The position numbers and the translations under genes were made by a program. The notes under the pieces are model-generated. The model was not told the origin of the DNA, searched no databases, and was given only the letters and a program-made list of their open reading frames with translations. Positions 7,095 to 54,380 of a stretch of 64,000 nucleotides of DNA are shown piece by piece (the stretch's first letter is position 1; each line of letters begins with the position of its first letter). The stretch lies in IMG/VR virus record IMGVR_UViG_3300046009_010174, positions 1-64,000 of that record; one strand, 5' to 3'. The DNA comes from a virus.

Positions 7095-10000
7095 ATGTCC
7101 GAAAGTTCATTATCGTTTGCATCAACATCAAGTTTTAGAAATAGTTTACTGAATAGGAATTTACCCCCCTATGCAGTGACTGGTGTTTATACAGCACCTG
7201 TTGGTACTAGAACATATGAAACAAGTTTAAGTGATTACAATGTTATTAATTCACCTGATGATTTAATCTCACAGAATCCATTTGTAAGACAACTTTATCC
7301 GTTGAATGAGTATGGACCTGAAGGTGGATATAATTATACAATCACATACAATAACCCACCAATAATTAATAGTTCTAATCAAGGTGAATATAGTCCAAAC
7401 GACACAGTACTAGATTTAGTTAATGAATTTTTTATTGACGCAGCATATATCGAAAACAGATATGGTCCTGTGGGAGGATTCAATGATATGGTTATTATTG
7501 ATAACATACAAAACAATAATAAGTTATATACACCATATTGGAATCCCCCAACTTTTGTACCCTCTTCCTATAGTCCATATCAGATTCTAATTTCTCCTGA
7601 CCCCGCTGGTGATAGTGGATTATTATCACAAGATTCATATTTAGCTAAGCTTGGGGCTCAAACTTTAAAAAAACTTTTTCAGGACAGAGTTGATGCTGAT
7701 ACAAGAAGAAATACACAAGGCACTTTGACTCTTGATACAACAAGTGACCCTTTTGATATTTCTTTAATTATTGCGGGTAAAGAACCCTTGAGGTCTAAAA
7801 ATTGGACTATTACAGTACCAACAACACCAACTAATGAATCACCATTTATACAAAGTTTGGGGGGTGCATATTTTCCTGTATCACCTATTGCTGGTGATTA
7901 TTTTGACCCTGTACTTTTTAATGCTGGTTCATCCACACAAATATCATTAGCTCTTAACGTACCTAATTTAACAACTGGAGGTGGAGGTTTACCACTCACC
8001 TTAAATATTACAACGAATCCATCACAGAATTTCATTGATAACACTGGTACAGGTCAACAATCAGCTTTATTTGCTAATATTGATTATAATAGATATAGAG
8101 CACAATATACAAGAACTTCACAATTTGCACAAACTGAAAGTACAATAAATCAAAATGGTACTTTGAATGGTGGTTACTATGTGGGTAGTAGAACATCTGA
8201 ACCATCGACTATTACATCACCACCTTTACAAATACCTATTGACCCATTCGGAAGACAAGTACAAACACCGGTTTATGGACCTAGTGAGTTGGGTAGTTTA
8301 TATGAAGGAAATATTGGTCGATTAAATTTTGGTTTGGCTGGTAAATCATCATCTGATGGTGGAGGTATTGATGGTCAATTTGTGTGGGTTTCACCTAAAT
8401 ATAAAAGTGATGCTGGTTTTAAAGCAACACCTGGTGGTGGTACTGGTTCACAAGATGAGGAATTTAATTTAATAAGTTCACAATATACAAGTAACGAATC
8501 AACAAATTTACAATTCAAAGAAAGTTCTATTTTAGATGCAACTCAACGTCTTGTTAATTCGGCGGATTTAGTTAATGGTATTTCGAGATTAAAACACGTT
8601 GGAAATGCAATTAATCAAGTTAGTAAAGTTTTCAACGATGGATATAAAGAATTAACAAAAGGTTCAAGAGTTTTATCATATAGAGATAACACTACTGGTG
8701 CTGAAGCGGGTATTGAATATTGTAGGGTATTTGCAAAAGATACACCTTATTACACTTATGGTGATTTACAGAAATCAGATGGTATTACTAAATCAGGTAG
8801 AAGATTTGACTATTCTGTATTGGACAACACTTATAATTTAAACATAGCACCACTCAAAAATCCTGGTTCAACAAATCTACAACCAAATGCAAAAGGTCAA
8901 GTTGTTGCTAAAAAATATATGTTCTCAATTGAAAATCTTGCTTGGAGAACATCAAGTAAACCTGGGTTTACATATGATGATTTACCTGCATGTGAAAGAG
9001 GACCTAATGGTGGTAGAATTATGTGGTTCCCACCCTATGATTTAACATTTGAAGATAGTGCTGATGTATCCTTCGATGCAACAACTTTTATTGGTAGACC
9101 TGAACCTATATATACTTACTCAAAATCAAGTAGAAGTGGTTCAGTAAATTGGAAAATCATAGTCGACCATCCTTCTGTTATGAACACAATTGTTCAAAAA
9201 CAACTTAAGGGTCAAACTAAAGAAAAAATTGATTCAATAGTTGATTCATTTTTTGCAGGTTGTGTAAAATTTGACATTTACGAATTAGCTAAAAAATTTA
9301 ATACAATACCATTGTCTGAATTATATACATACCAAGAGGTTATTAATAATCCAAGATTAACCAAAGAAGAACTTGGTCAAGTTATAACAGAAATATCAAA
9401 AGAAAATGTACCACTTGGAGGACAAGATGGAGGAAATGTTACTCCACCTCAGGGTGTCAAAAAAACTACACCAGACCCAGCTAAACAAGCTTTTGTTGAT
9501 GCCTATTTAGGTATAGGTTTTTATTTTGACAATGATATTCCATCATCTGGTGATATTCCATATAATAGTACTTATGATGGTTATATTTCAAAAAAAGAAA
9601 CTTATAAAACGAATGCTGAATCAGCTTTTGCTTCAGGTGGAACTTATTGTAAACAAAATGTTGAATTTTGTAATAGAGCCAAAAATGTCAACGAGTTTTT
9701 CGATTCTGTTGTAAAAACAAATTATGAAAAAGTTTCAAGTGGACAAAAGAATTTTATTACTGATGCCTTTGATTTATTGAATAATAAAAAAGGAACTATT
9801 ACTATAGAAATGGAGGGTGCTGCCTCAGCGACTGCGTCAGTTGATTACAATAAAAAATTGTCACAAAGAAGAATAGATTCAGTTGAAAGTTTCTTAAAAT
9901 CTTTTAAAATCGGAGATGCTAATTTACAAAAATTTATTGATGATAAAAAACTAATAATTAAAGAAATTGCAAGTGGTGAACAAGCTAAAAGTGTTGTTCC

Positions 10001-12134
10001 CAAATCGGCAGATGGTACACCAGGTTTTGAAGTAAATTGTACTGAGGATATTAAAAGTACAACTGGTGCTATCACTTTTCAATCACAAGTATATTCTGTA
10101 AATGCAATGGCTTGTAGAAGAGTTATAATAAAATCAATTGTTGTTGATGTACCCGATATTGAAACTATTGAACAACCGAATGTTGAAGAACAAAAAGAAG
10201 TCAAAACACAACAAGTTGATGTTGTATCAAGTAGACCTGTAGATAGAGTTCAACCAACTGTAGATATTGTTAAAAAACTTAAAGATGGTATTGGTAAAAA
10301 AATATTGAGAAACTTATTTAGTGAATGTGATTATTTTGAAGTATTGAAGGAAGAAAATCCTATGGTATATACTTCAATTGTTGAAAAAATAAAGTATTTC
10401 AATCCGGCTTTCCATTCTATGACACCTGAAGGCTTAAATGCTCGTCTAACTTTCTTGAATCAATGTACAAAACCTGGTGAAACGATACCAACAATAGGTC
10501 CTGATGGTAAACCAAGATACAATGATGCTCAAAATACTGCATTTGGTGCACCACCAGTTCTAATACTTAGAATAGGAGATTTTTACAATACAAAGATAAT
10601 ACCTAAAAGTGTTAGTTTTACATACGAAAAAGATGGTCAATTTGATATGAATCCTGAAGGTATTGGATTACAACCAATGATAGTTTCAGTAAAAATGGGA
10701 TTTGACATTATTGGTGGTATGGGTCTTAAAGGTCCTGTAGAACAATTACAGAATGCTTTATCATTCAACTATTATGCTAACACAGAAATATATGATGAAA
10801 GAGCAACACCTACTGATGAAAGTTATAAAGTTGTAGACCAAGAAATTATTACTTCTTTAACCGCAGGAGAAGAAGCTGCGACAACTCAAAATTCAACACC
10901 ACCACAGACAAATCCTGGTGGTTCAACTATAGGTGAAATTATTACAAATATACCAGTACCTAATGGTCAAAATGGTGAAATCTCATACGGAAAAGTAATG
11001 GACACATTAATAGACCAAAGTGTAGGTTATTTCAATAACACACTTAATACATTAGAAAAGATTACACTAAATTATAATTATGGAATTCTACAATTGGTGA
11101 ATCAAAAAAGATTATATACGACTGGTTTAATGAAAGGAGCAACTTGGGCAAACCAAGATACACCAATCTGGGGTGCACCATCTAGTGTTGGTGAAACATT
11201 GGCCACTTTATTTAAAAATGTAACTGATGATATTGATGATGATGCTAACATAATTATTGAAGAATTAAATGCTAAAAAATTTGGATTAGATTCACCAGCA
11301 ATTAAAGGAGTTAAACAAAATATGAAAGAGTATTTTAAAACACTTCAATCTGAATTTGAGAATGGTATTACAACTATAACACAAGAGTTTATAAAGTTTG
11401 AACAAGATTTTGTTTACTTAATACGACAAATAAATTTAATAAGTGAAAATACTGATGGAAAACTTTTGAATGGTAATAAACCGAGAGTTTATAACTTAAC
11501 AGGTACTTCAGAAGTAACAGCATCAAGTTTGGAAAGTAGTCCAAAACCAACTAACACTACTGAGGAATTATCTTATGATTATGAGAAAGTTTACGAAGCA
11601 TTGATTGACTATAATGATTATTTGTCAGGATTGGAAACTGAGGCAAAATATACAATTATAACAACAGAAGAAGGTTTAGATGAAATTTTTCCATTGAATG
11701 ATTCTTTATTTAAAGATAATTCTGAACTTCTTTTCTTTATGGTTATATCAAGAATATTCTCTGATAAAAATAAAAGGGATGGTTTTATTAATAGTATAAT
11801 TAAAGGGGAACTTCTTAAAATTTCAGACCCACTAAATTTAAAAAATCAATTTACACAGATAGTAAATAAGTTAGCTAATAAATATGATAAGGAATTAGCG
11901 GAAGAGGAAAAAATGTTCAAAGAACTAAGAAAAGATAAATATTTAAAAAATTTCTTAAGTAGTCCTGACGAAAAACTTTATCCTAAAGGTAAAACAAGAA
12001 AATTTAATTATACAACGATACCTAACCAAAATACTAATGCAACACAAGAAACAAATATAAAAAATGTTTTTAGTACCACTAATACTAATCAAGATACTCA
12101 AACATTTGATGGAAAAGTTTCATTCAATAGTTAA
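7095..12134 (+). CDS. Giant baseplate/hub protein with embedded OmpA-like domain
   Basis: A 1679-aa structural protein. The N-terminal 500 residues are Ser/Thr/Asn/Gly-rich. Around 610-710 a conserved-looking baseplate segment appears (KYMFSIENLAWRTS, GRIMWFPPYDLTFED, SGSVNWKIIVDHPS). Residues about 797-1018 match an OmpA-like peptidoglycan-binding fold: first strand GIGFYFDNDIP, core IEMEGAASATASVDYN, helix KKLSQRRIDSVESFL and last strand ACRRVIIKSIVV. A later tube-cap-like region (VSFTYEKDGQFDMNPEG) and a helical tail follow. It lies between the tape measure and gp53-like genes, so it probably caps the tube at the baseplate hub. The OmpA-like part may anchor the tail tip on peptidoglycan. 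The OmpA call is strong by motif; the rest is inferred from position. Confidence 0.75.
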   Translation: MSESSLSFASTSSFRNSLLNRNLPPYAVTGVYTAPVGTRTYETSLSDYNVINSPDDLISQNPFVRQLYPLNEYGPEGGYNYTITYNNPPIINSSNQGEYSPNDTVLDLVNEFFIDAAYIENRYGPVGGFNDMVIIDNIQNNNKLYTPYWNPPTFVPSSYSPYQILISPDPAGDSGLLSQDSYLAKLGAQTLKKLFQDRVDADTRRNTQGTLTLDTTSDPFDISLIIAGKEPLRSKNWTITVPTTPTNESPFIQSLGGAYFPVSPIAGDYFDPVLFNAGSSTQISLALNVPNLTTGGGGLPLTLNITTNPSQNFIDNTGTGQQSALFANIDYNRYRAQYTRTSQFAQTESTINQNGTLNGGYYVGSRTSEPSTITSPPLQIPIDPFGRQVQTPVYGPSELGSLYEGNIGRLNFGLAGKSSSDGGGIDGQFVWVSPKYKSDAGFKATPGGGTGSQDEEFNLISSQYTSNESTNLQFKESSILDATQRLVNSADLVNGISRLKHVGNAINQVSKVFNDGYKELTKGSRVLSYRDNTTGAEAGIEYCRVFAKDTPYYTYGDLQKSDGITKSGRRFDYSVLDNTYNLNIAPLKNPGSTNLQPNAKGQVVAKKYMFSIENLAWRTSSKPGFTYDDLPACERGPNGGRIMWFPPYDLTFEDSADVSFDATTFIGRPEPIYTYSKSSRSGSVNWKIIVDHPSVMNTIVQKQLKGQTKEKIDSIVDSFFAGCVKFDIYELAKKFNTIPLSELYTYQEVINNPRLTKEELGQVITEISKENVPLGGQDGGNVTPPQGVKKTTPDPAKQAFVDAYLGIGFYFDNDIPSSGDIPYNSTYDGYISKKETYKTNAESAFASGGTYCKQNVEFCNRAKNVNEFFDSVVKTNYEKVSSGQKNFITDAFDLLNNKKGTITIEMEGAASATASVDYNKKLSQRRIDSVESFLKSFKIGDANLQKFIDDKKLIIKEIASGEQAKSVVPKSADGTPGFEVNCTEDIKSTTGAITFQSQVYSVNAMACRRVIIKSIVVDVPDIETIEQPNVEEQKEVKTQQVDVVSSRPVDRVQPTVDIVKKLKDGIGKKILRNLFSECDYFEVLKEENPMVYTSIVEKIKYFNPAFHSMTPEGLNARLTFLNQCTKPGETIPTIGPDGKPRYNDAQNTAFGAPPVLILRIGDFYNTKIIPKSVSFTYEKDGQFDMNPEGIGLQPMIVSVKMGFDIIGGMGLKGPVEQLQNALSFNYYANTEIYDERATPTDESYKVVDQEIITSLTAGEEAATTQNSTPPQTNPGGSTIGEIITNIPVPNGQNGEISYGKVMDTLIDQSVGYFNNTLNTLEKITLNYNYGILQLVNQKRLYTTGLMKGATWANQDTPIWGAPSSVGETLATLFKNVTDDIDDDANIIIEELNAKKFGLDSPAIKGVKQNMKEYFKTLQSEFENGITTITQEFIKFEQDFVYLIRQINLISENTDGKLLNGNKPRVYNLTGTSEVTASSLESSPKPTNTTEELSYDYEKVYEALIDYNDYLSGLETEAKYTIITTEEGLDEIFPLNDSLFKDNSELLFFMVISRIFSDKNKRDGFINSIIKGELLKISDPLNLKNQFTQIVNKLANKYDKELAEEEKMFKELRKDKYLKNFLSSPDEKLYPKGKTRKFNYTTIPNQNTNATQETNIKNVFSTTNTNQDTQTFDGKVSFNS

Positions 12135-12137
12135 ATT

Positions 12138-12461
12138 ATGGCAAGACAAACATATAACAGATACGCAGATTTTCTTTTAAACGGACAACAAACGATTGTT
12201 CCATATATTCAACTACCAAACAAAAGTAGTGATAAAAGATACATTTATAAAATTGGGATGTCCAGAATGGATAAAGTGTCACAACAATATTATGGTTCTC
12301 CAACTTTCGGTTGGTTAATCTTGATGGCTAATCCACAATATGGTGGACAAGAATGGAACATACCTGATGGTTCTATATTGACAATACCATATCCGTTAGT
12401 AACTTCTTTACAAGATTACAAATCCCAATTAAACAATCATTTCTTCTATTATGGTAGATAG
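12138..12461 (+). CDS. 53: Baseplate wedge protein gp53-like, LysM-type
   Basis: A 107-aa protein starting 3 nt after the previous stop. After YIYKIGMSRMDKVSQQYYGSP comes FGWLILMANPQ and IPDGSILTIPYP, the beta-alpha-alpha-beta layout of LysM-like domains found in T4 gp53 and T6SS/R-pyocin relatives. Gp53-type proteins link wedges around the hub. It is shorter than T4 gp53 (196 aa), keeping little beyond the LysM core. The 3' end overlaps the next start by 11 nt, implying coupled translation with the 2450-aa protein. Confidence 0.8.
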   Translation: MARQTYNRYADFLLNGQQTIVPYIQLPNKSSDKRYIYKIGMSRMDKVSQQYYGSPTFGWLILMANPQYGGQEWNIPDGSILTIPYPLVTSLQDYKSQLNNHFFYYGR

Positions 12462-15400
12462 ACCCGAAAATATATTAGTCGATTTTGACTATAACAACAT
12501 TATAGTAGTTGACCCAAACAAAATTATTGATGAGGATGGTCGTGCAAAAGACAGACACATCAGAATGGAGAATATGGTTTATTATGCTAATTTGGAATGT
12601 AAAGTAGTTCCAAGAACTAAATTAGCCGTGGGTGTTGCAGCTAATGATGCAATTCAAACAGTATCTGTAGCATCTCTTAATTTTCTACAACCTGGTGGAG
12701 AAGATTATCTTAATACTAAATGGACTGATGAAATAACAGGGAAAGATTCTTTGAAAGGTCAAGGTATTAATCAACCAATAAAAAACCAATTTCAAAATCC
12801 GAATAAAAGTGATGACTACTATGTAAGACAAACAATTAATACTGGTGGTAAACCTGGTGCTACTGACACTGGATTATTAGGTATAAAGTCAATTAGTGTC
12901 ACAATTAACACAGCATTTGAACCAGTTATATCAATAAAAATGATTGATATAAGAGGTAAAGCTCTATTTGAATCAGGTGATAGTTCACCATATGCTGTTT
13001 TCTTCAACCTACCATATCCTTTATTCTATCTAACACTAAAGGGGTATCTAGGTAAAGCAATCAGGTTACCATTGATGTTGTATAAATTTGGTGCTTCATT
13101 TAATACTGGTTCGGGTAACTTCGATGTGGACTTACAATTTTATACATACAAATATAATGTAATGACTGAAATTACAATGGCTGGTCTATTAGCTACACCT
13201 TATATGTATAAAACAAATCTTAGAATACAAGAAAGAAGTGGTGTCCCCAATCAGTCAGCAAACGTACAAGATAGAACAGTTACTAGAGGGTATCAAAAGA
13301 TTCAAGAAGTTTATAGTGAATATAAATCAAAAGGTATCATACCTGATGATTTTCCTGAACTAACGTTGATGGAAATGAAAGATAGATTGGACATTTTTAT
13401 TAAAAATAAAATGGACACTTTTGCAAAAGAAAACTTACAACCATTGAGTGATTGTGAAAGTTATAGAGTTAACTTAGCGGAATACTATGGTGATGTTTAT
13501 TTTTATGCAGGAAATCAATCTTGGTTCAATAGAAATATGGACACACAAAATTTTATAGTTTTGACTGATAAAAAAACTAGGGTTTATACGTTCACTAAAG
13601 TTATAGATACACCTGATAAAAGAAACACTGCTGAAAGTGAATTAATTGGGAAAATTAATGATAATAATAAAAAATTAAAAACCAATCAAACTGTTGGTGA
13701 GGATGGAAAATATAAAATAGGAAAAAAACCTGAGGTTAAGAGTGCGATAAATTTTAGTATAAGTATAGATACCTTCAGAAAAGTTGTACAAATCAAAGAT
13801 ATTGATATCGCTGAAACCTTCCTACAACGTAAGAAAAAAGAACCCACACCAGCTGAATTGGAGACATTTCAAGCTGAGTTGGAATTACAATTAGAGTTTC
13901 AAGCGGGTTCATTTAAAACAAAAAATGGGGACATAAAACAAGAAAAAAAATACTTTTTTTTCGAAGGTGATGGTTCATTTACTTCAATAGTACAACAAAT
14001 GAACACAGACCTCAAAAGAATAAAAGAGGATATTGAAAATGCTTTGACTGAGACATTGGCCGACTTATTACAAAATAAAAACAATGGTATTGGTTTTGTA
14101 CCAAACATTAGAAATGTGTTAGCTGTGTTCTTTGCTAATGGTGAGGCATTTTTGAGATTGATGGATGATGTACATACTAAAGCTTGGAATGAAAGAAATA
14201 GTGATGTTAGGAAGAAAGCAATTTTTGACCCACAAGTTGCTGGTGCTTCACAAGATAATATAAATCCAGGTGATGACACTAATACACCAATTTATCCTTG
14301 GCCACAATTTATTGTCGCAACTAATGGTGAAAATGGACAAGAAAAATATGAAATTAGATATCCTGGTGACCAATCTTTAATAAGTCGTACTCAAGGTTAT
14401 TTATATGATAAATGGCCTGAAATTGAATTTGTTGAAGAATTCATTAAAGGTTTGACTGAGAGAGACCCCGAAAGAAAAGAAATCGGACCGACAACAAATG
14501 AGGTATTAGATATTAAACGTGCATCTATTAATGCTATTGAGTTTCCAATAACCAATCAAGTTTATAGTAATAAAGAGGAAGTTAAGTTCTTTTATGAGAT
14601 TTACGAGAGATTAATTTATTTAGTTAATTTTTCAAAAATTACTCGAGCAAACAATACTAACTCTACTGCTGACGAAATATCAAATGTTTTAGCCGAGTTT
14701 GAAAGTGGTAATCTTTTGGATAGTTTGGGTGTAAATAGTCCATTCATAATTATGAAACTTAAAAATTTGGGTTTCAATGCTCAAACTTTTCCTTTAATCC
14801 TTAGACAAATATCTAATGGTGGTATAGGAGAAAGTTGGCAAAATTATATCAGAGGAATTTTCAATACAAAATATATACGTAATCAAATTTCTAATTCTAG
14901 TTTCGAATTTATTAAAAGTTCTGATTTTATTAGTAGAGCTACTGAACCTCAATTATCAATTGTTGACGAAGACAAACTACAAAATTTTATTGATGATTCT
15001 ACCGCAGGTAATAAAGTTGATTTTACTGACACTTTTCCATTTACAAATTTAAATTGGTGTAAAAATAATTTAGCTAATGGTGTTGGTGTATCCACAGTTA
15101 ATCAAGCTATGGATACGAAAGATGTTATATTTTATAATAAAAATAAAAAAGTTATAACTAATTTTAACCAAGATACGACCTTTAACCAAATCAGACCAAT
15201 TACACACTTTGTTTTTCAAAATGTTAGTGAACCATCAGTAACGGAAGATAATTTAAAGACATTTTTACAAAGTAGAACAACTGATTATAAGTTACAACTT
15301 ATAACTGAAGGTAATGTTGATTATTCAAATTATAATGGAAATTTAGGTTTGGCTAATCAAACATCTTCTATGTTTAATACACCATACTTTACCAACTCAA

Positions 15401-18400
15401 TACAAGAAGCAATACAGAAGTTTAGGAATGGTGACCCCTACCCTTTTACTGTTCCCGCTTACTTGTTTTTGAATAGTTTACCATTAGCAACACCCAAAGA
15501 AAAATATAAAAGTTGGGACTTTGGTGAAGAAAAAACATTGAGTTATATTTTTGCAAGTTTAAAAAAATATTCGGGTGTTCACAAAGTACCATACGCATGG
15601 TTATTAAAATTAGGTTCTGTTTGGCATCGTTATAAAAAATATGTTGAAAGTACAAATAACTTTGATATATTGGATAACTCTTGGAAAAACTTTAATAGCT
15701 TAGTAAATTATGACCCAGTTACATCAGCAGCAACTAAAACATATAGTTTGACAATTAATAATGCAAACGTTGACATAGTATTAGAAGACATCAATACAAT
15801 CGGTGTGGGGACTGGTACAACTACTTCCGTAATTATGAATGTTGGATTTTATCCAAAATTAATAAATGACTTTAACGTTTTTTATCAAGGTTATGAAATA
15901 ATTAAAAGTAACCAACAAATAAATGGTATTGCAAGAGTAACTGGTGGTACAATATTAACAATTTCATCAGTAAATTTAGACCAACTCACAATCGGTAACA
16001 TTTTAGGTGGGACAAGTTTTTTAGCTGGTACTACAATCTTATCACAAATAAATGGAACACCTGGTGGTATTGGTCAATATACTATTAATTTACCACAATC
16101 AGTAACTGACTCAAACTTTTTTATAACCAATTCACAATCCGTTGGATATTCAGATACTTTAATACAACAAGCGTTAAGTTCTGGTTTAACAATGGAATAT
16201 GTTGCTGAAGCAATTATAAATGAAACAAACTCAGCAAGAAATCTCAATACTAAAATCATACCTTGGTCGGTGAGTGTTAAAACACCAGCGGGTAAATTTT
16301 GGTATCAAATACCATCAAGTGGTAGTTTGTTTAATCAAACAAAATTGGAATGTTTTAAAAAGACATCAACAAATGGAATTTCATCAGTTGTAATTCCAGT
16401 TACTGGTAATACTGCAATTCATAATGGTGCTGTTAGAACCTTTTGGACTGCCCCAAATTATGGATATTTTGATAACAATAAATTAACTAAACCTTCATAC
16501 GATTCGTATTTAAAATATATAAACCCATCAAGTGATGACCAAGAAAATTTTAGTTTCAGTCCAGTAACCCCATCAAAGATTGAGGAACTTTTATCAATAT
16601 TCCCTAAAGATGTTTTGGATGGTTTCGAAACTGAGTTTTTAAAATTTTCACGTTCAGTTTATGACATTGAAAGTGATGGGTCAACAAATATACCAGGAGG
16701 TATAAATGAAATACCATCTAAAGCTGCATTCAAAAATTTCCAAGCTTTGATGAGGGATATGATGAAAATACCTGTCATAACTGGTAATACAGGTGAGGAA
16801 ATTGTATCAACTATTCAAACAAGTCAATTTGAAAAAATAAATTCTTATCTTTCAGATTTTCTTCTCTATGATATCTACTTTAAATTTGGTAATCCATCAA
16901 ATTATGATAGGAAGTTATTTTTAACTTTTTCAAATGAAGAAGTTGTTGACCCCATCGTTTGGGAAAAGTATCAAATCATAACACCTAATAGTGTACCTGT
17001 AAATGGAAACCCAACTTTGTTATTTTCAGAGGTTAATTATCCTAATGTTTGGAAGGCTTTGAGAACCTATGTGGGATTTTCAACAATACAAGATATAAGT
17101 TATAAAAATAGTGGTTCATATATCACTGATTTCTTTGTTGATTTTAATGTTGCGTTTACGGAAGATAATGTTAAATCTTTTGCTCAAATTATCAAAATTT
17201 ACGCAACTCAGAAACTAAATCAGTTTCAAGTAAATCAAATTGAACCACCTCAGTCACCACCAACACAACCAACTCAGATTGTAGGTATAACTTATCTCAA
17301 AAACTTATTTACAATTAACATAGAATACTATGATGGTAAATATAGAACAGTTTATAAGAACTCTGGTGGGACACCTCTATTTGAAAGTAAGTATGAAAGT
17401 ATTCCACTTTCATTGAGAGCAGCAAACAATTTTAATGTAACTGCAACAACAAATGTTTATTATTCGGCAATAACTAATCAAGTTATTGAAACTGCATATA
17501 ATTCATTATCTAATAATCCTAATGACCCGCAATATATTGTAAGACAAGAATTTGTTGAACCCCAAACTTATACACCAACACCAAACACCACACAACAGAA
17601 AGGTAAAAATGCCTTTCAAACTGCTATGTCATCCTACTTGTCTCAAGTGGATAACTTTAGAGATAAGATTGTTAACAATTTGATACCAAAATTACAAAAA
17701 TCTTTGGCCAATGTTAATATGACAGTTGAAGAACAGAAACCATCGAAGTTGACTGGTGAACCACAACCTAAAGTTGAATTATGGGAATCATTTAAAGCAC
17801 TAAATGATAAATGGATTTCTGGTAATGACTACAAAACTAAAACATTATTTGAGGATGTTTTATTATTGGATAGGGCAAATAAAAACATTGGGGAAGAAGT
17901 ATTAATTGATATATTTTCAATAAGTGACCAAATTACAAACATAAATGCTTCGGCTAGTTTGTATTCTTACGTTACGGGTATATTACAATTAAATCATTTT
18001 GTTGTACTTACAATACCTAACTACATCAATTTTTACAATGTACAAGATGCGATTAAAGACCCAAAACCAAGATTGGAAGGTACTGCAGAATTTGCAAATA
18101 CACTTTTTGGGACATTTTTAAATGTTGATTATAGAGAATCAACAGCTAAAATGGTTTGTACTTACGCAGGTAAAGCTAGTGAACAACCTGATGTTAAAAG
18201 TGTTGACTTCAGATTTAGAAGTGATTCATTTGATTTGACTAGAGCAAGTGATAATCCCTTGGTTGAAAATCAAGTTGGTAAAAAAGATTGGGATAAATCA
18301 AATAGAGTAGTTGGATTTAATGTTGATATCGGTCCTCAAAATCAGGGTGTATTTAAAAACTTTAGTGTTGGTCAAAATTCATCTTTAGCAACATCAGAAT

Positions 18401-19803
18401 CACTTCAGATTTTAAACCAAATGGCAAATCAAGGTGGAAACAGAGGTGGTGCAACACAAAGTGTATCCTTATATAATTTATATAAGAACAGAAGTTATAC
18501 TTGTAATATTGATATGTTGGGAAATGCTTTAATACAACCAACAATGTACTTTAATTTAAGAAACGTACCTATGTTTAGTGGTTCGTATTATATTACTTCA
18601 GTATCACACAACATCACAGATTCAAGTTTTGAAACTAGTTTTGAGGGAGTTAGACAACCAGTACCAAATTTACCAAAGATTGATAATTACATACAAAATC
18701 TTAGAGCTAACTTGGTGAGTAAAATTACTGAATTGATTAAACAACAAAGTACAACAACTACAGTACAACAAAATACAAACGTTAATAGTGTTACAAATAA
18801 TGTTACAAGTAATGCTGGTAATGGTGCTTCACAACAAGTTTCTCAAACAACAAATGAAGCTTGTAAACCAGTTGAACAATATAGTAAATTTGTTAACAAT
18901 ACTACACCTACTGAGGTTACAATTAATTATCAAGATTTGATTAAAGAAATAAAAGGTCAATCTAATGATGATAAACTACTTTATACTATTTTCTTTTGGT
19001 CTTATACAAATTCATTCAATGGTAAAGATGGACTAAGAGTTATTGGAAATAATCCAGGTTATTTATCTATTGACCAATATTTTGGTACAATTGGAAATGA
19101 AAAATATTTCTGTACAACGAAAAATATTCCGTATGTTGAGTTTAGTTCGTTGTCAAATTATGTTGAGTTTCTTATTAAAAGATGGCAATCAAGGGTTATT
19201 ACTTTACAAAGTAATGGAGAACAAATCAATGTGGATGATTACGTTAAATTTGCTTATATAAATTCATTTGCTGATAGTGTTGGTAAAGGAACTGAGAGTT
19301 ACAATAAAATGGTTGGAACTAATGACTTTCAAAAATATAAGGATGACTTTAATAAAGCACTACAAATATTAAAACCAGCAACTAATGTTGTAACTCAAAT
19401 TACACCACCACCAGCACCGCCACAACCTTCGATTTTACAAGAAACAATTGTCACTGGTGGATTAGATGGTAGTTTCCAAAGATTAACTATACAAATAAAA
19501 CCAAATAGTGGTTTGTGGAAAATATTTGCAGTTAATTTGGATTGGACTTCATCAGCATTGTGTTCACGAAGTGGTAAAAATAAATCTATACCAGAATATA
19601 TTAGTACAGACCAACAATCAGTATTGATAAATAATACTGATTTAATATCACGAATTGGTTGTAGTGGTGTCTCTAGAAATGATTTTATTGGAACATACAA
19701 TTTTGTGATTTGGGTTTACGTTAATCCTGTTTTAGCTGATGGTAGAACAGACCAAAACAGACAACAAGAAATAGGAAAATATCCGATACAGATTGTATTG
19801 TAG
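12451..19803 (+). CDS. Giant baseplate hub protein (2450 aa) with possible C-terminal lytic domain
   Basis: One of the largest tail proteins expected in any T4-like phage. The N-terminus (about 1-260) is beta-rich and hub-like (SISVTINTAFEPVISIKMID, PLFYLTLKGYLGKAIRLPLM). Residues around 2028-2070 carry PTMYFNLRNVPMFSGSYYI and VSHNITDSSFETSFEGVRQP, reminiscent of the C-terminal part of gp27/gpD-type hubs. A Thr/Gln/Asn-rich linker follows. Residues about 2160-2300 (VIGNNPGYLSIDQYFG, YVEFSSLSNYVEFLIKRW) resemble the NNPG-type fold of phage lysozyme/transglycosylase-like domains. A beta domain closes the protein. It would combine hub and cell-wall-cutting functions that T4 splits between gp27 and gp5. 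Hub role is fairly likely; the lytic domain is tentative. Confidence 0.65.
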   Translation: MVDRPENILVDFDYNNIIVVDPNKIIDEDGRAKDRHIRMENMVYYANLECKVVPRTKLAVGVAANDAIQTVSVASLNFLQPGGEDYLNTKWTDEITGKDSLKGQGINQPIKNQFQNPNKSDDYYVRQTINTGGKPGATDTGLLGIKSISVTINTAFEPVISIKMIDIRGKALFESGDSSPYAVFFNLPYPLFYLTLKGYLGKAIRLPLMLYKFGASFNTGSGNFDVDLQFYTYKYNVMTEITMAGLLATPYMYKTNLRIQERSGVPNQSANVQDRTVTRGYQKIQEVYSEYKSKGIIPDDFPELTLMEMKDRLDIFIKNKMDTFAKENLQPLSDCESYRVNLAEYYGDVYFYAGNQSWFNRNMDTQNFIVLTDKKTRVYTFTKVIDTPDKRNTAESELIGKINDNNKKLKTNQTVGEDGKYKIGKKPEVKSAINFSISIDTFRKVVQIKDIDIAETFLQRKKKEPTPAELETFQAELELQLEFQAGSFKTKNGDIKQEKKYFFFEGDGSFTSIVQQMNTDLKRIKEDIENALTETLADLLQNKNNGIGFVPNIRNVLAVFFANGEAFLRLMDDVHTKAWNERNSDVRKKAIFDPQVAGASQDNINPGDDTNTPIYPWPQFIVATNGENGQEKYEIRYPGDQSLISRTQGYLYDKWPEIEFVEEFIKGLTERDPERKEIGPTTNEVLDIKRASINAIEFPITNQVYSNKEEVKFFYEIYERLIYLVNFSKITRANNTNSTADEISNVLAEFESGNLLDSLGVNSPFIIMKLKNLGFNAQTFPLILRQISNGGIGESWQNYIRGIFNTKYIRNQISNSSFEFIKSSDFISRATEPQLSIVDEDKLQNFIDDSTAGNKVDFTDTFPFTNLNWCKNNLANGVGVSTVNQAMDTKDVIFYNKNKKVITNFNQDTTFNQIRPITHFVFQNVSEPSVTEDNLKTFLQSRTTDYKLQLITEGNVDYSNYNGNLGLANQTSSMFNTPYFTNSIQEAIQKFRNGDPYPFTVPAYLFLNSLPLATPKEKYKSWDFGEEKTLSYIFASLKKYSGVHKVPYAWLLKLGSVWHRYKKYVESTNNFDILDNSWKNFNSLVNYDPVTSAATKTYSLTINNANVDIVLEDINTIGVGTGTTTSVIMNVGFYPKLINDFNVFYQGYEIIKSNQQINGIARVTGGTILTISSVNLDQLTIGNILGGTSFLAGTTILSQINGTPGGIGQYTINLPQSVTDSNFFITNSQSVGYSDTLIQQALSSGLTMEYVAEAIINETNSARNLNTKIIPWSVSVKTPAGKFWYQIPSSGSLFNQTKLECFKKTSTNGISSVVIPVTGNTAIHNGAVRTFWTAPNYGYFDNNKLTKPSYDSYLKYINPSSDDQENFSFSPVTPSKIEELLSIFPKDVLDGFETEFLKFSRSVYDIESDGSTNIPGGINEIPSKAAFKNFQALMRDMMKIPVITGNTGEEIVSTIQTSQFEKINSYLSDFLLYDIYFKFGNPSNYDRKLFLTFSNEEVVDPIVWEKYQIITPNSVPVNGNPTLLFSEVNYPNVWKALRTYVGFSTIQDISYKNSGSYITDFFVDFNVAFTEDNVKSFAQIIKIYATQKLNQFQVNQIEPPQSPPTQPTQIVGITYLKNLFTINIEYYDGKYRTVYKNSGGTPLFESKYESIPLSLRAANNFNVTATTNVYYSAITNQVIETAYNSLSNNPNDPQYIVRQEFVEPQTYTPTPNTTQQKGKNAFQTAMSSYLSQVDNFRDKIVNNLIPKLQKSLANVNMTVEEQKPSKLTGEPQPKVELWESFKALNDKWISGNDYKTKTLFEDVLLLDRANKNIGEEVLIDIFSISDQITNINASASLYSYVTGILQLNHFVVLTIPNYINFYNVQDAIKDPKPRLEGTAEFANTLFGTFLNVDYRESTAKMVCTYAGKASEQPDVKSVDFRFRSDSFDLTRASDNPLVENQVGKKDWDKSNRVVGFNVDIGPQNQGVFKNFSVGQNSSLATSESLQILNQMANQGGNRGGATQSVSLYNLYKNRSYTCNIDMLGNALIQPTMYFNLRNVPMFSGSYYITSVSHNITDSSFETSFEGVRQPVPNLPKIDNYIQNLRANLVSKITELIKQQSTTTTVQQNTNVNSVTNNVTSNAGNGASQQVSQTTNEACKPVEQYSKFVNNTTPTEVTINYQDLIKEIKGQSNDDKLLYTIFFWSYTNSFNGKDGLRVIGNNPGYLSIDQYFGTIGNEKYFCTTKNIPYVEFSSLSNYVEFLIKRWQSRVITLQSNGEQINVDDYVKFAYINSFADSVGKGTESYNKMVGTNDFQKYKDDFNKALQILKPATNVVTQITPPPAPPQPSILQETIVTGGLDGSFQRLTIQIKPNSGLWKIFAVNLDWTSSALCSRSGKNKSIPEYISTDQQSVLINNTDLISRIGCSGVSRNDFIGTYNFVIWVYVNPVLADGRTDQNRQQEIGKYPIQIVL

Positions 19804-45800: not shown

Positions 45801-46233
45801 TTGTCCTATACAAAACACAGAGTGTCCAAAATATCCTTGGTTAAGTGACCCAAAACTTGGTAGTTTTGGTAGTGTTTTAGGTAAATTGTTGAATGAATAT
45901 CTTACTTCTATTGGTTATGACCCAAATAATTGTAGTTTGAATACGTTAACCACAGAGTGGTATGTGGATATTAGGATAGATGATATTCAAGTTGTTTCTT
46001 ACCCATTCTTCAATGGAATAGGATATAATTTAATACCATTAAGTTATCCTACAACTACGAATTGGGACACAGCATTAGTTACCGCTATGAATTTGATTAA
46101 ACCACTAGGTTATGATTATTACTTTACTAGTGACGATACTATTGTAGTTTATAATCAAGTGTGTTCTGTGTCAGAAGCTGATATTAACTTCAAGTTAAAT
46201 ATCGGAATAAACTTCTCAATTTATTGTGTATAA
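42856..46233 (+). CDS. Baseplate wedge-like protein with gpI/gp7-type motif, 1125 aa
   Basis: Around residues 350-470 it contains VLQIYGRSFDEVNKYITSL, LRNLAQTLGW and FKSKGTRKSIENLLRLIG. The KGT-plus-helix motif is characteristic of phage tail protein I (P2 gpI), related to the C-terminal part of T4 gp7. This gene, rather than the 1782-aa one, may therefore be the true gp7 equivalent. From about 850 onward it is Cys-rich (DLCECISITG, GYDPCCG, PCRPCELND), with a C-terminal segment (WYVDIRIDDIQVVSYPFFNG) that also seems to occur in the next protein. The start overlaps the preceding stop. Confidence 0.7.
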   Translation: MAKFTCPPQTPSGAGTFANNLVGLQLVTGGGLTQGTFNFTLSASEKVNRNFSTGTFSNPISLDSMGIIDINQAKAIIENNYKVYPNFDLTQVTNFVLYGSMAKRMSAAVTQVISYFPAALESTTLRLDYSTGVTAFNVVFSLQYNETTFELDLTKIRNPFGIDYTTNSTRNLSLREIPVSTLRNMTLEYAKYSLYYNEIGYQVKRIVPTNSLTSGNLSITVVGNPFSGETNVFGNIIIRPNDSEVNKVFNENLDEVENFLLNRTSTPIYTASFVIPKEADDGTYYSDNASVTWPILGLWNLDIISSTFVDYLTVLNDISVSFDSYRTNLVSRFFTTPAFKEFDTIGQKMDKVLQIYGRSFDEVNKYITSLSYVTSVNYNVRNDIPSQLLRNLAQTLGWQTNISPITNTDFLNSVFGQTNQEKSMFSGVPVAQTPDELNYQFYRNVLLNTAYLFKSKGTRKSIENLLRLIGAPEALVEFNEYVYLADQRININKFNSYYAQISGGTLVEQTPTLESSNVFTLFGVQYTGFTTTVTIKDVNITIDEFPIDEFGFPKPITDSEAYFFQIGSGWFEQTPQHRAPEQVNSTLSVFTGLNPDYQTSLKPYTYGQEYLDRFRKFPFIQLGYNISPSVDNNKSWYDSEVLLRVNLDGNINARYFVADDKLVLNVKNTEIFLNPAQGLLYDVWYMSRLYNYPIPNQGMNYVNPNGCFPNAASCYPDRNGVDWTIINPQPKQKTFFEFAQTFWKNTINVRNRQYSTDGKTSGYPTLQSIYWKYLQSLQDVNIANNNFTYQTMIEYVNGLGDYWIRLIEQMVPATTIWNTGVKLENSIFHRQKFQWKRQRGCQIILDTPPPTPDPVDLCECISITGASVGSSTLITTLSPNGYVNGKQSFLGYDPCCGLVKDIIISYNSGSTRWEYYYDGTLVGTLNSTSDCPIGSVWSNTKNNVGTISSTNRTICPNPASFTPLRPNPCRPCELNDSLYTYDCPIQNTECPKYPWLSDPKLGSFGSVLGKLLNEYLTSIGYDPNNCSLNTLTTEWYVDIRIDDIQVVSYPFFNGIGYNLIPLSYPTTTNWDTALVTAMNLIKPLGYDYYFTSDDTIVVYNQVCSVSEADINFKLNIGINFSIYCV

Positions 46234-48374
46234 TGTCTTGTTTTTTAGATGTAGTAGTAAATAGTATAACTGGTGATTGTAGTAATACGTCCTCAGGTGC
46301 GTTTAATATAAGTATCAATGGTAGTGCTCCTGATTTTACAATTTCTTGGATTGACCCTAGTTTTGGTACAATTCCACTTAGTGGTGCCACAGGGTACACA
46401 ATTAGTGGACTTTCGGGTGGTTCTTATGTATTTAATGTTATTGATAGTTGTTCAGGAGGTAGTACAACATTTCCTGTAAGTGTCTATATTTCGACAGGGA
46501 CTTGTGTTACCTTGACAGGTGTTCAGAATACAACTTGTAATCTGAGTAATGGTAGTATTACTGCTGATACAACAAATTATTATAATTCACCTACTTTTAG
46601 TTTATACGAAATATCGAGTGGGTTTATTACTTCAGGACAAAGTTTCAACAATATCTTCACATTTAATTCTTTATCTGCAGGTACATATTATGTTATTGCG
46701 GACGATGGTGGGGGATGTACTGGTAAATCTGAATCATGTATTGTTAAGTCATCAACTACGTTAGATTTTGGTGTATATGTCATCAATGATGCGGGATGTG
46801 CAGTGGACTCAGGGGCAATCTACGTTACTGGTCAAACTGGAGTACCACCATACACATATTTGTGGTCAAATGGTCAAACAACCCCATCAATCACAGGATT
46901 AACACCTGGTAATTACAATGTGGTGGTGACAGATAGTGCTGGTTGTTCTAATAGTTTGGGTGTGGTTGTAAATGAAGTACCACCAATTGGATTGGGAACA
47001 TTTACAATTACAAATCCATCTTGTTACACTTCGGATGGAAGTGTAACAGTTGTTACAACTGGTGGTACTGCACCTTTTTATTATTCAGGTTCTAACGGAA
47101 CTGTAACAATTACTTTTGCTTCGAGTTATACATTTACTGGTGTTGCCGCAGGTAATTTCTCAGTTAGTGTAACTGATGCTGGTTTATGTAATTTTGTGGC
47201 ATCCACAATTTTGTTGACTCCGAATTCATTTACTAACGTAACAGTTTCAACAACCAACTCACTATGTAATAATAATACAGGTGTTGTTTCAGTTTCTCTA
47301 TTTGGTGGTTCCCCTCCTTATTCATATACTCTGATAGATTTCACAGGAAACTCAGCAACAACAGTTACTAATGCAACAAATGTAAACTTTAATGCCTTGG
47401 AATCGGGTAATTACACCTTACAAATTACTGATGGAGGACCTTGTGTTTTTACTCAAGCTGTGACAATAAATAATACAATTTTATATACTTTAAGTTCAGT
47501 TGTATCAGGTACAACTTGTGGACAAAATAATGGTGTTGTTACTTTAAATATAAGTAGTGGAGGTACACCACCCTACATCTATCAGATGGATGGTGTTTTA
47601 GTTAACACAAGTTTGTCAGGTTATACATTTTCAGGATTAGCACCTGGTAATTACACAGCATCTGTAATTGATGCTAATTTATGTCAACAATTTTTACCAA
47701 TATTAATACCAACCTCATCCTCGGTAAATTTTATATTAAACCCAACATCACCACTATCGGGAAATGATGGGATGATAGAAACTTTTATATTAGAAGGTGA
47801 ACCTCCGTTTAATTTAATATGGAGTTCAAACGCACCAAGTGGACAAACTGGTTTAACAATAACTGGTCTCACTGCTGGTACGTACAATCTAAGTGTTACA
47901 GATGATAATGGATGTACACAAGTAAGAAGTGTAACTTTATTCGGATACAATTTAATATCTTCATATCAAGTTTTAAATATTTGCAACGATAATTTTGTAA
48001 ATTCGGGTCAATTAATCAAAAAGGGACTACAACAGATGTATCTTGAAGGTTTTCATGACTTAACATCAGGTGATACCAATTGTTTACTAAGTGCCGCAAC
48101 TTTTGTTTGTGAAGTTAGTGTAAATGGGGTAACCAACTCAATTGGTTTTTATAATTCCACATCGTTAAACGATTTTCCAACTGATAGTGTATATTTTAAT
48201 GTTGTTGAAATATTATTATCACTATACCCCGAATTAGAAACAATAACTATTGATATATCGACAGGTGAGATATTAATTAGTTCATTGTGTAATCCATCCA
48301 TTGGGATGATTGATGCAACAATAATTGTGAGTGTAATAATTCTTTACAACATAAATTGTGTAAGTTGTGCATAA
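46233..48374 (+). CDS. Tail fibre with seven SprB-like repeats, 713 aa
   Basis: Starts at ATG 46233, overlapping the previous stop (TAATG). Residues 1 to about 570 form roughly seven tandem repeats of 75-85 residues. Each has a Cys and GS.. segment, a GG.PPY-type turn (GVPPYTYLWSNG, GGSPPYSYTL, GGTPPYIYQM) and an ending like ITGLTPGNYNVVVTDSAGC. This matches SprB-type repeats (Pfam SprB), named for the flavobacterial gliding adhesin SprB. The C-terminus (about 575-713) is a separate domain with FVCEVSVNGVTNSIGFYNST. It is probably a fibre or adhesin reaching the host surface. Repeat identity is strong; function is inferred. Confidence 0.82.
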   Translation: MSCFLDVVVNSITGDCSNTSSGAFNISINGSAPDFTISWIDPSFGTIPLSGATGYTISGLSGGSYVFNVIDSCSGGSTTFPVSVYISTGTCVTLTGVQNTTCNLSNGSITADTTNYYNSPTFSLYEISSGFITSGQSFNNIFTFNSLSAGTYYVIADDGGGCTGKSESCIVKSSTTLDFGVYVINDAGCAVDSGAIYVTGQTGVPPYTYLWSNGQTTPSITGLTPGNYNVVVTDSAGCSNSLGVVVNEVPPIGLGTFTITNPSCYTSDGSVTVVTTGGTAPFYYSGSNGTVTITFASSYTFTGVAAGNFSVSVTDAGLCNFVASTILLTPNSFTNVTVSTTNSLCNNNTGVVSVSLFGGSPPYSYTLIDFTGNSATTVTNATNVNFNALESGNYTLQITDGGPCVFTQAVTINNTILYTLSSVVSGTTCGQNNGVVTLNISSGGTPPYIYQMDGVLVNTSLSGYTFSGLAPGNYTASVIDANLCQQFLPILIPTSSSVNFILNPTSPLSGNDGMIETFILEGEPPFNLIWSSNAPSGQTGLTITGLTAGTYNLSVTDDNGCTQVRSVTLFGYNLISSYQVLNICNDNFVNSGQLIKKGLQQMYLEGFHDLTSGDTNCLLSAATFVCEVSVNGVTNSIGFYNSTSLNDFPTDSVYFNVVEILLSLYPELETITIDISTGEILISSLCNPSIGMIDATIIVSVIILYNINCVSCA

Positions 48375-51455: not shown

Positions 51456-52181
51456 TTATGTGACGATAATGTTACAACAATAACATCCTGATATAGAAAC
51501 ATTACTTAAAGTGTAATTTTCAACACTTTGACCTAAATAACAAGCGACATCTTGGTTTTTAGTTGTAGTTGTATATGTTGTTAATATTAAAGTATCTGAA
51601 TTTGTATAAGTGAGATTGTTCCATCCCTCAGTGTACGAAGTGATGTAAACATTTTGATTTTGACAACCTGGTGTTGGATTATAAGTTGTACTCAAAGTCG
51701 AACTTGAGTATGAAATAGATTGTGTGACACTATTTTTAACCAAGTCACTCGTTGACGTTGTTGTAGAAGTACCTGAGAATGGAGAAGATTTTGAAGTATT
51801 TAAATGTACCAAATTAAATGTTATAGTTACACCACTTGGTAAACTTGGAAACACTGAAATAGTTGTATCGTATTTTTTTGTTAATGTTGTATTGTTATTA
51901 ACTATTGTTGTTGACGAAGTATTAATTGTAACGTTGTATGTTATTGAATTATTCGATGTGTTTAGAATAACAGAATTTGTTGATGTTTCACCCGACACGT
52001 CTTTTACAATAACAGAGTATTGACCAGGACATAAATTACTAAATAATGGTGTATTAAAATAGGTTAAACCATTATTAATTGAGTAGGAATATGGTGGTGT
52101 TCCATTGTAACCTTGAATTGCAAAAGAACCATCACATCCACAAATTGTATCATTTATATTAACAGTTGAAGTTAAAATCAT
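51456..52181 (-). CDS. Short fibre protein with one SprB-like repeat, 241 aa
   Basis: The first 80 residues match a single SprB-type repeat: ICGCDGSFAIQGYNGTPPYS, a LCPGQYSVIVKDVSG ending and Cys in the expected places. The remainder is Ser/Thr/Asn-rich beta sequence with little Lys, and ends with Cys-rich CYCCNIIVT. It lies 3 nt upstream of the 731-aa fibre stop, in the same direction. Probably a fibre accessory or tip subunit. Confidence 0.65.
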   Translation of the reverse strand: MILTSTVNINDTICGCDGSFAIQGYNGTPPYSYSINNGLTYFNTPLFSNLCPGQYSVIVKDVSGETSTNSVILNTSNNSITYNVTINTSSTTIVNNNTTLTKKYDTTISVFPSLPSGVTITFNLVHLNTSKSSPFSGTSTTTSTSDLVKNSVTQSISYSSSTLSTTYNPTPGCQNQNVYITSYTEGWNNLTYTNSDTLILTTYTTTTKNQDVACYLGQSVENYTLSNVSISGCYCCNIIVT

Positions 52182-52184
52182 ATA

Positions 52185-54380
52185 TTAGCTTGTTGAAGTA
52201 AATGTGTATGTACTTGTTTTAGTACCCCCAGCAACTAAATTGGCTGTTAATGTAACTAAATAAGTATGTGTATTACCAATCGGAGGACACGGGCCTTCCC
52301 ATCCTTGAGTATTTGAAGCACCTGGGTCACCTGTGGTTGGATTTATTGTCACACCACCAGGCCAAGGTATTGATGAACTAACCTGAGTGGTTGTATTTGG
52401 TATATTTGTTACATCCCAATGAATATATCCCGGATTGTCTAAATCTTCACAATAAATTTCAAAACTACTAATGTCTGAACTTGTTAAACCCCCCAACAAA
52501 TACCATTTAAACCAAGGAGTTTCATTAGAACCACCACAAGCCCCTGAAAATTTAAATGTTGTTGGTATGTCACTATCATCTAACGCCCACCAAGCATTAA
52601 TTGTTAAAGATAAAAAGTCAGAACAAGCACCTATTGATGTTATAGTTTGTTGTTGAGGACTTGGAGGATTAACAGACATTGTCCATGCTCCTGAAGTTGG
52701 TGAACTTGGATATCCTTTGAATATAGTCCAAGTAGATGTACCTAAAGCTGTATTTATAATACTACTTGTTGATGCCGATAACGACCATACTCCCGAAGTA
52801 CCAACAGATGGGTTAAAATATACAATTTCATTACCAGAATTTGATATCCAAGATGTTTGGCCATTTATATAAGTGTTATATTGGAAAGTAATTTGAGTTG
52901 TGGTTGGAGTAGGTGTACCGCCAGTCCTTTTGGTTGTCGTAATTGACATACAGAAAATATTTTCTAAATAGTTTGGAACTGGAGGTAAAGTTGTTGTTGA
53001 TGTTGTAGTCGTTGTAAAACCAGGTACTGTACAAGTTGTTGTGAAAGTATAGTCACCATAATAGTCACTAACAACGGCAGTATAACTACCAGTAGATAGA
53101 CCATTTATTGTCTTACCACCTATTAGTGTAGCACCATTAGGAAAAGTCCATTCTATTGTGTATGGAGGAACACCACCAACGATACTTAATGTTATTGAAC
53201 CATTTGAACTATCAGGGTTTCCAGTAATATTTGTTACATTACAGATTACGTTTAATGGTTGTATAGTGAGTACGTTACAATCATTTACTGGTATATAACC
53301 CGAGTTTATATATGACCTAGTTGTTGTAGTTGTCGTTGAAGTGGTAGGTGTTACACCAGTACAAGGTGTTCTTAAAACTTGTGAACAAAAAGGTGAACCC
53401 GAACATGTTACTAATGTAAATCCACTCGAACAAGTTAACCCAGTAACACCTGAATTATCAAAAGTAGTACCCGTTAAATCTCTTGTGGTGAATACGGTTA
53501 CTAAGGTTAATGCTGATTGGGAAGTAATTGCACTCAAAGACGAAACACTACCTGAATAAATTTCAGCACCGAAACCACCAGTAGCTCCTGTACTTGAATT
53601 TAGACCTTCCATTTGAATATAATTCGGTCCTGCTGGTAAAGTTATTGGGAAAACTGACCAAGTTGAAAAAGTTTGACCATGTGTTCTATAAGCTGAAAAT
53701 GAATTGTACTGATTACCGAAAGTAAAACCACTTGTATTAGCTTCAACTAATAACACACCATTTAATTTAAATCTGTAAAAATCGTCAGCACCCATTCCCA
53801 AATAATAGGTTTGAGATGTTGGATTATTGAAACAAGCAGTGAAACCAATCCATTCATTTGCTGGAGAAAAAGGTGATGTTGTTGTTGGCCAAACACCTGA
53901 GTAATTTAATCTACCTGGTGAATTGGGTAGAAAAGTTGTTGATTTATTACCCCATACTGTATTAGAATTAGCACATGGCCAAATTCTAGGTCCGTGAGTT
54001 GTTGCACTTAATGAACAACTTTCTAATAAACCACTTGGAGAAACAATACTTTGACCAGCACCCGGGCCTCCCAAAATATAATTTAAAGTTCTATCCTTCA
54101 AACTTTTGGTAGTATCAGAATCTATAAAAAATGATGTGTTGAATAAGGGTGTCCCATTTTTTGTTTGAGAACCAGTTGTAATTCCTGTCAGTATAATTGG
54201 AAACGTCAAATTAGTTATGTCTTCATAAAAAATTGTCCCCATATATCCGTTGGTAGAAAACTGACCTGCTTTCAAAACAACAAGAGTTGAGGCAGAACCA
54301 CTGGTTGATGCGGTTACTTCTCTTATACACTCAGAATTATCAGGTGCTGCGGTATAACCAGATGGACAAAAACAACTCAT
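52185..54380 (-). CDS. Modular fibre protein with PA14-like, SprB-like and PEBP-like domains, 731 aa
   Basis: The N-terminus is Cys-rich (FCPSGYTAAPDNSECI). A PA14-like carbohydrate-binding region follows (ACFNNPTSQTYYLGMGADDF, YRFKLNGVLLVEANTSGF). A TSTTTTTTRS linker precedes an SprB-like repeat (NGSITLSIVGGVPPYTIEW), then a TTTTTSTTTLPP linker. The last 150 residues match a PEBP/YbhB-type domain: SDIPTTFKFSGACGG, IYCEDLDNPGYIHWDVTNIP, and GWEGPCPPIGNTHTYLV. PEBP proteins bind lipids or small ligands; in a fibre it may bind a surface molecule. It has a late-promoter-like box 15 nt upstream. The PEBP match is strong; binding function is inferred. Confidence 0.78.
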   Translation of the reverse strand: MSCFCPSGYTAAPDNSECIREVTASTSGSASTLVVLKAGQFSTNGYMGTIFYEDITNLTFPIILTGITTGSQTKNGTPLFNTSFFIDSDTTKSLKDRTLNYILGGPGAGQSIVSPSGLLESCSLSATTHGPRIWPCANSNTVWGNKSTTFLPNSPGRLNYSGVWPTTTSPFSPANEWIGFTACFNNPTSQTYYLGMGADDFYRFKLNGVLLVEANTSGFTFGNQYNSFSAYRTHGQTFSTWSVFPITLPAGPNYIQMEGLNSSTGATGGFGAEIYSGSVSSLSAITSQSALTLVTVFTTRDLTGTTFDNSGVTGLTCSSGFTLVTCSGSPFCSQVLRTPCTGVTPTTSTTTTTTRSYINSGYIPVNDCNVLTIQPLNVICNVTNITGNPDSSNGSITLSIVGGVPPYTIEWTFPNGATLIGGKTINGLSTGSYTAVVSDYYGDYTFTTTCTVPGFTTTTTSTTTLPPVPNYLENIFCMSITTTKRTGGTPTPTTTQITFQYNTYINGQTSWISNSGNEIVYFNPSVGTSGVWSLSASTSSIINTALGTSTWTIFKGYPSSPTSGAWTMSVNPPSPQQQTITSIGACSDFLSLTINAWWALDDSDIPTTFKFSGACGGSNETPWFKWYLLGGLTSSDISSFEIYCEDLDNPGYIHWDVTNIPNTTTQVSSSIPWPGGVTINPTTGDPGASNTQGWEGPCPPIGNTHTYLVTLTANLVAGGTKTSTYTFTSTS

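Follow-up and report, generated by a model that had tools for sequence, protein, structure and literature searches.

It is poorly known how contractile tails get their tip through peptidoglycan or sense it, and one gene of an uncultured phage puts the question in a specific form: what is a domain of the OmpA type, a peptidoglycan-binding fold of bacterial envelopes, doing inside a large tail protein? The gene (7095..12134, on the + strand, as are the five neighbouring tail genes listed next and the parts of this gene located further on) codes for a protein of 1679 aa and is found in a window of 64 kb, the whole stretch of DNA that was analysed, belonging to the IMG/VR record IMGVR_UViG_3300046009_010174 (64,095 bases), a virus of bacteria. 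The window carries a T4-like tail module. Upstream of the gene lie the tail tube protein (3763..4251; phrog_4542, E 7.9e-27), a baseplate hub subunit (4305..5063; phrog_150, E 5.1e-14) and a 603-aa protein (5245..7056) that is in the tape-measure position by synteny with the cultured Flavobacterium phage immuto and for which Pfam and PHROGs gave no convincing family match. Downstream are a 107-aa LysM/gp53-like baseplate protein with the conserved C-terminus FYYGR (12138..12461; phrog_7145, E 1.4e-5) and a hub-type tail protein of 2450 aa (12451..19803; phrog_52 at residues 2017-2128). Elsewhere in the window, an ORF with CxxC motifs between the tail sheath and tail tube genes (1131-2687) has, by eye, the look of an inserted endonuclease of the homing type. 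Three proteins of the fibre region (46224-48374, 51456-52181 and 52185-54380) contain repeats that resemble, also by eye, the SprB/PKD-type adhesin repeats of Bacteroidota, a hint that the host may belong to this phylum.

The presence of an OmpA-like domain in this protein had been proposed in an initial annotation, at 9484-10150, a span that is one base out of frame (residues 797-1018 correspond to nt 9483-10148). The domain itself is real, and we place it at residues ~791-1019 (9465..10151) on the basis of profile matches, an AlphaFold2 model and structural matches. Taken as a single sequence it does not reach the curated cut-off of Pfam PF00691 (E 2.4e-4, 21.8 bits against the 27.2 required), and the whole 1679-aa protein obtains 18.9 bits; a 350-aa piece of the protein also matches phrog_7897, of unknown function (E 3e-4). 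The profile of the family, on the other hand, is clear. The searches of viral contigs provided 137 loci including the window itself, i.e., 136 others, from which 119 full-length homologues were kept together with the query (18 partial ones were dropped) and 58 representatives were aligned. PF00691 was matched by 40 of these 58 at E<=0.01 (best 5.8e-6), and the family profile retrieved 29 PDB sequences at E<=1 (best 9.5e-7), of which 28 are OmpA/Pal-type chains. The other one, a photosystem chain, was taken as a chance match.

The structural evidence goes in the same direction. The AlphaFold2 model of the domain, with the alignment of the relatives as input, has a confident OmpA fold (pLDDT 90.9), with a helical insert of ~60 residues between beta1 and alpha1. 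All the 50 PDB matches listed by Foldseek were OmpA-like domain chains. The best VIA match (Z 10.2, rmsd 2.2, 120/120 residues) was with the A. baumannii OmpA domain, 3td3_A, and its complexes with DAP and with the pentapeptide, 3td4 and 3td5, scored within 0.2 of it; a family missing from a VIA list is not thereby excluded. The family profile, the AlphaFold2 model, Foldseek and VIA together rule out a chance resemblance to OmpA.

As for the protein that carries the domain, it had been called a baseplate hub protein. It does appear to be a central baseplate protein, but the fold of its flanks and the gene order make it better read as a tube initiator than as a hub. The phage would be a T4-like one with a contractile tail, and the 1679-aa protein probably its tail tube initiator, with the OmpA-like domain located in a loop of its beta domain, as judged from the modelled fold of the flanking halves and the synteny with immuto26A_236. 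The putative tube-initiator-like beta domain would be divided into a first half at residues ~600-704 (8892..9206) and a second half at residues ~1149-1210 (10539..10724), the limits of both being approximate. In VIA, the model of this core matched the diffocin chain 8v3w_T (Z 10.1, 119 residues aligned at rmsd 3.3, target of 138), PVC 6j0n_b (Z 9.9), AFP 6rao_G (Z 9.7) and baseplate chains of phiCD508, E217, pyocin R2, A-1(L) and Mu (Z 8.2 to 9.4). These tube-initiator matches extend over model residues of about 137-745 (143-743 for the two flanking halves, around the insert at 324-555); such ranges, which in VIA mark just the two ends of an alignment, take in the OmpA insert, itself matched at 322-555. 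The core model outside the OmpA-like domain has low confidence (mean pLDDT 60.2), and it is not independent of the model of the domain, the same relatives having been used in both. A tube-like beta domain related to known tube initiators may thus be proposed with moderate confidence, given the low-to-middling pLDDT of those parts.

At the level of sequence, the first half of the core is homologous to proteins of immuto, of the Microcystis phage Mel-JY01 and of a huge-phage relative (hhalign E 2e-6 to 3e-9). The second half is weakly similar to the immuto-type proteins (hhalign E 0.009 and, with a larger set, 0.001), and by itself it fails column shuffles (score of 20.2 against a maximum of 21.1, with one of the 30 shuffles higher); against the larger immuto-type alignment only a short match remains. 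Between both halves there are ~16 residues in immuto and ~446 in the 1679-aa protein. Profiles of the immuto-type proteins gave no match in PHROGs or among the PDB sequences, where no solved sequence relative of the tube domain was found, and a weak PHROG match appeared in 2 of 27 core members. The gene order is common to the window and phage immuto: sheath, tube, hub subunit, tape measure, a small ORF, the 1679-aa gene or its homologue, the LysM-like gene and the hub. The gene is located in both cases between the tape-measure position and the LysM and hub genes; in immuto the sheath, the hub subunit and the tape measure are annotated, and the tube gene appears as a tail completion protein in one record and as a tail tube protein in another. 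Along these lines, in the relatives sampled the homologue is followed by an ORF of ~110 aa and then by one of ~2,200 aa. Because both flanks match chains of the tube-initiator type, we interpret the protein as a tube initiator whose tube domain has received OmpA as an insert, and the gene order agrees with this. Seven cysteines of the protein (543, 633, 723, 982, 1007, 1078 and 1124) are invariant in the 58 representatives and could form disulfides or a metal site.

How old and how widespread is this arrangement? Two of the sets of relatives comprise the best 80 matches, out of at least 595 and at least 600 respectively, and the set of immuto-type loci the best 80 of 201. The domain was recognised by profile in 76 of 83 further core-bearing ORFs; among the other seven one is truncated (L138) and six (L186, L214, L190, L178, L139 and L140) keep by eye a degenerate version, below the profile threshold. 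Among the best 80 of the 201 immuto-type loci neither profile found OmpA in any (0/80), and the tube domain is uninterrupted. Being nearly universal in one lineage and absent from 80 of 80 immuto-type loci, OmpA looks like an old insertion. Searches of cultured phages with tblastn gave no close match to the whole protein (E<=0.01), to the C-core (E<=1) or to L140 and L139 (E<=0.01). Among the divergent core relatives, L140 is a Prochlorococcus single-cell contig, L139 comes from a rumen Paludibacteraceae MAG and L138 from a Holophagaceae MAG; since binning placed these contigs in three distant phyla, the hosts of the lineage may be many. This widespread lineage of uncultured phages thus carries its OmpA-fold domain on what is probably the first ring of the tube.

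A way to approach the role of the domain is to look at the pocket that in its bacterial counterparts holds the diaminopimelate (DAP) of peptidoglycan. In TagL the contacts with DAP are Asp486, Asn494, Leu497 and Arg501, according to PMC8253398, and by spacing they correspond to Ser911, Asn919, Leu922 and Arg926 of the phage protein; the HMMER alignment also sets Ser911 (9825..9827) on the Asp. The other pocket residues Asn919, Leu922, Ser923 and Arg926 (TagL N494, L497, S498 and R501) are found at 9849..9872. The pattern had been described as a complete OmpA-like one, including the Arg of YN..LSQRRIDSV. The Arg is certainly kept, in all of the 154 distinct relatives (from 213 domain matches in a wider set); the pattern is incomplete, the Asp of the GHTD motif being Ser in 58/58 representatives and in 143 of the 154 relatives, the others having Asn (8), Leu (1), Asp (1) or a gap (1). 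The rest of the pocket is nearly fixed (N919 in 153, L922 in 145 plus Ile in 8, S923 in 148), as are Cys982 and Cys1007 (153 each), which delimit a span (10038..10115) that may be closed by a disulfide. These pocket residues and the C982/C1007 motif are among the most conserved of a domain in which the median modal fraction is 0.34 and the remainder drifts to an identity of 26-48%, the closest representative excepted; outside the pocket and the Cys/Met motif few residues are conserved.

For comparison we examined bacterial OmpA domains of one genome (21 PF00691 places, giving 20 distinct domains from overlapping loci once duplicates were dropped), among which the Asp is present in 20/20, a figure biased by a seed pattern that required it, and the Arg in 17/20. 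Conservation is thus reversed with respect to bacterial OmpA: the Asp is replaced while the Arg and the Asn are kept. When the flanking core is placed in a tree with its root on L139 and L140, the only Asp-bearing relative (L184) is nested among Ser-bearing ones, so Ser looks old and Asp secondary; the Asn-bearing relatives form one clade. Judging from these alignments, the pocket is conserved but retuned.

What does this mean for the clamp on the cell wall proposed in the initial annotation, in which the tail tip would hold the DAP of peptidoglycan as OmpA or Pal do? The closeness of the fold to a domain of A. baumannii that binds DAP and the conservation of Arg926, Asn919, Leu922 and Ser923 are what would be expected of it. 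However, experiments with the D271A and R286A forms of the A. baumannii OmpA found both residues critical for DAP binding by ITC, according to PMC6572160, and the first of the two is the one replaced by Ser in the window and in 143 of the 154 relatives. Since Ser911 stands in place of this critical Asp, canonical DAP clamping appears doubtful on the residues present, and we regard the clamp as unlikely. One of the two key gripping residues having been replaced in nearly all relatives, the domain may hold something other than ordinary cell wall. The domain had also been thought to orient a wall-cutting domain of the neighbouring 2450-aa protein, in which Pfam, NCBIfam and PHROGs recognised none; its C-terminal 500 aa and those of 33 homologues gave only scattered weak matches in Pfam, among them one CHAP (E 0.015). 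The hub protein beside the homologue in immuto (L240:16555-19371) ends in a VanY-type D-Ala-D-Ala carboxypeptidase, unrecognised in the 2450-aa protein of the window.

The main rival to the explanation that we prefer (see below) keeps the cell wall as ligand in another form, precisely because the most conserved residues of such a variable domain include the pocket. The domain could grip at puncture a non-canonical form of the host wall, for example cross-linked DAP with an acylated amino group, for which no Asp would be needed; Arg926 would still hold the carboxylate and the tube tip would be latched or positioned at the peptidoglycan, a DAP chemistry that is our own supposition. A fixed pocket (Arg, Asn and Leu in nearly all relatives) amid the moderate drift of the rest suits a small constant ligand, and the natural presence of Asp in L184, nested among Ser-bearing relatives, also fits. 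Besides, an acidic residue is present at position 812 or 814 in 143/154 relatives (in the window, Asp812-Pro816 at 9528..9542), in the loop between beta1 and alpha1 that lines the DAP site in TagL (PMC8253398), and such residues might partly compensate for the missing Asp. Against it count the Asp being the most conserved pocket residue in the bacterial control (20/20, with the Asp-biased seed) and the structural role ascribed to the LysM domains found in the same region of other baseplates. We give this altered wall binding a lesser, though not negligible, likelihood.

At the other extreme, the domain could be inert, the product of an old insertion of OmpA origin that is maintained just for folding or spacing, the pocket residues being conserved for internal packing. 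The degenerate versions in L186, L214, L190, L178, L139 and L140 indicate that some lineages tolerate the loss of the pocket. Yet R926 is present in 154/154 and N919 in 153/154 relatives, and the OmpA fold as such has no need of the Arg since 3 of the 20 bacterial domains are without it, all of which makes simple filler distinctly improbable.

The explanation that we find most likely, at somewhat under an even chance, is a docking role inside the baseplate. It is an argument by analogy: published tube initiators carry or contact LysM, a wall-binding module that PMC11915804 and PMC10966104 describe as a structural component, and an OmpA-like domain with a kept but changed pocket would likewise be most likely a docking module. 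We infer that its ancestor bound peptidoglycan and that in the phage the pocket would have been readjusted to hold on to a conserved partner within the virion, a carboxylate being bound by Arg926. The copies of the domain around the first ring of the tube would then form a docking collar that might tie together the tube initiator, the LysM-like protein, the hub and the wedges until contraction. A speculative candidate for the partner is offered by the adjacent LysM-like protein, in its near-invariant C-terminus FYYGR. This end, or a close version of it, is found in nearly all relatives (R in 123, G in 126, Y in 125 and Y in 127 of 129 unique sequences). Of 103 distinct cases, 100 have the start codon of the next gene overlapping this end, which accounts at the level of the DNA for part of the conservation; the codons of the Arg and of the Tyr(-4) vary, which argues for selection on the protein. 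None of 75 immuto-type termini, chosen by ORF size and position without a LysM profile, has a YYGR end. The two deepest relatives, L139 and L140, are without YYGR and have degenerate OmpA regions. Against this partner, L186 and L214 keep the YYGR end despite having lost the pocket, so the link between this end and the integrity of the pocket is not a clean one. Against docking in general, one might expect an interface between proteins to have a larger number of conserved residues beyond the pocket and the Cys/Met motif.

It is possible, and we propose it tentatively, that contractile-tailed phages have made of a wall-gripping domain of bacteria a device mounted on the ring where the tube begins, its ligand chemistry being new: a lock that would hold the C-terminus of the LysM-like protein and be released on contraction, or a sensor of cross-linked peptidoglycan, which is not a favoured ligand of ordinary OmpA domains. 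If true, a single baseplate would have recruited LysM and OmpA, both of them wall-binding folds, next to each other. The question raised is whether the tip of the tube holds the wall or whether a wall-binding fold has been reused to hold the machine together, as LysM has been elsewhere. In searches of the open-licence PMC literature (titles and starts of abstracts of the papers listed) we found no description of an OmpA fold in a tube initiator.

OmpA domains in other phage genomes are already known from annotation, in other contexts. Bacillus phage G has one by annotation (gp249/gp250), and Cellulophaga phage phi17:2 has another (R9ZWT8), known here from its Foldseek row only. In Prevotella phage Lak-B5 the OmpA protein resembles, by eye, a binding protein with OmpA at its C-terminus, and its region gave no match to the profiles of the flanking core. 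Compared with the OmpA/Pal/MotB domains (PF00691; the nearest solved ones being A. baumannii OmpA 3td3/3td4/3td5 and P. gingivalis PorE 6top), the phage domain has the same fold and the N..LS..R motif, but differs in the Ser at the Asp of the DAP pocket, the helical insert between beta1 and alpha1, the pair C982 and C1007 and its location within a virion protein instead of an envelope one. With the tube initiators and their kin (diffocin 8v3w_T, PVC 6j0n_b, AFP 6rao_G, Mu gp43, A-1(L) gp18) the 1679-aa protein shares the beta domain, matched by its flanking halves, and a gene neighbourhood made up of the tape-measure position and genes for a LysM-like protein and a hub. It differs in that one loop has received ~446 residues, OmpA included, and in its total length, versus 138 to 446 residues in the matched chains named here. 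The relatives by sequence immuto26A_236 (716 aa) and WWT39329.1 of Mel-JY01 (2255 aa), with a homologous first half and a weaker second one, are without the OmpA insertion and have the domain uninterrupted; in immuto, with the same gene order, the LysM-like protein has 101 aa versus 107 in the window. The LysM of other baseplates (Mu gp43, A-1(L) gp16, T4 gp53) are also a wall-binding fold in the tube-initiator region, described as structural, but OmpA is a different fold and the phage of the window has in addition a separate LysM-like protein. Finally, TagL provides a case of an OmpA-type domain tied to a contractile machine, as in the phage of the window; TagL, which has Asp486 intact, serves the secreting cell as a membrane anchor, whereas the phage domain is carried in the tail itself.
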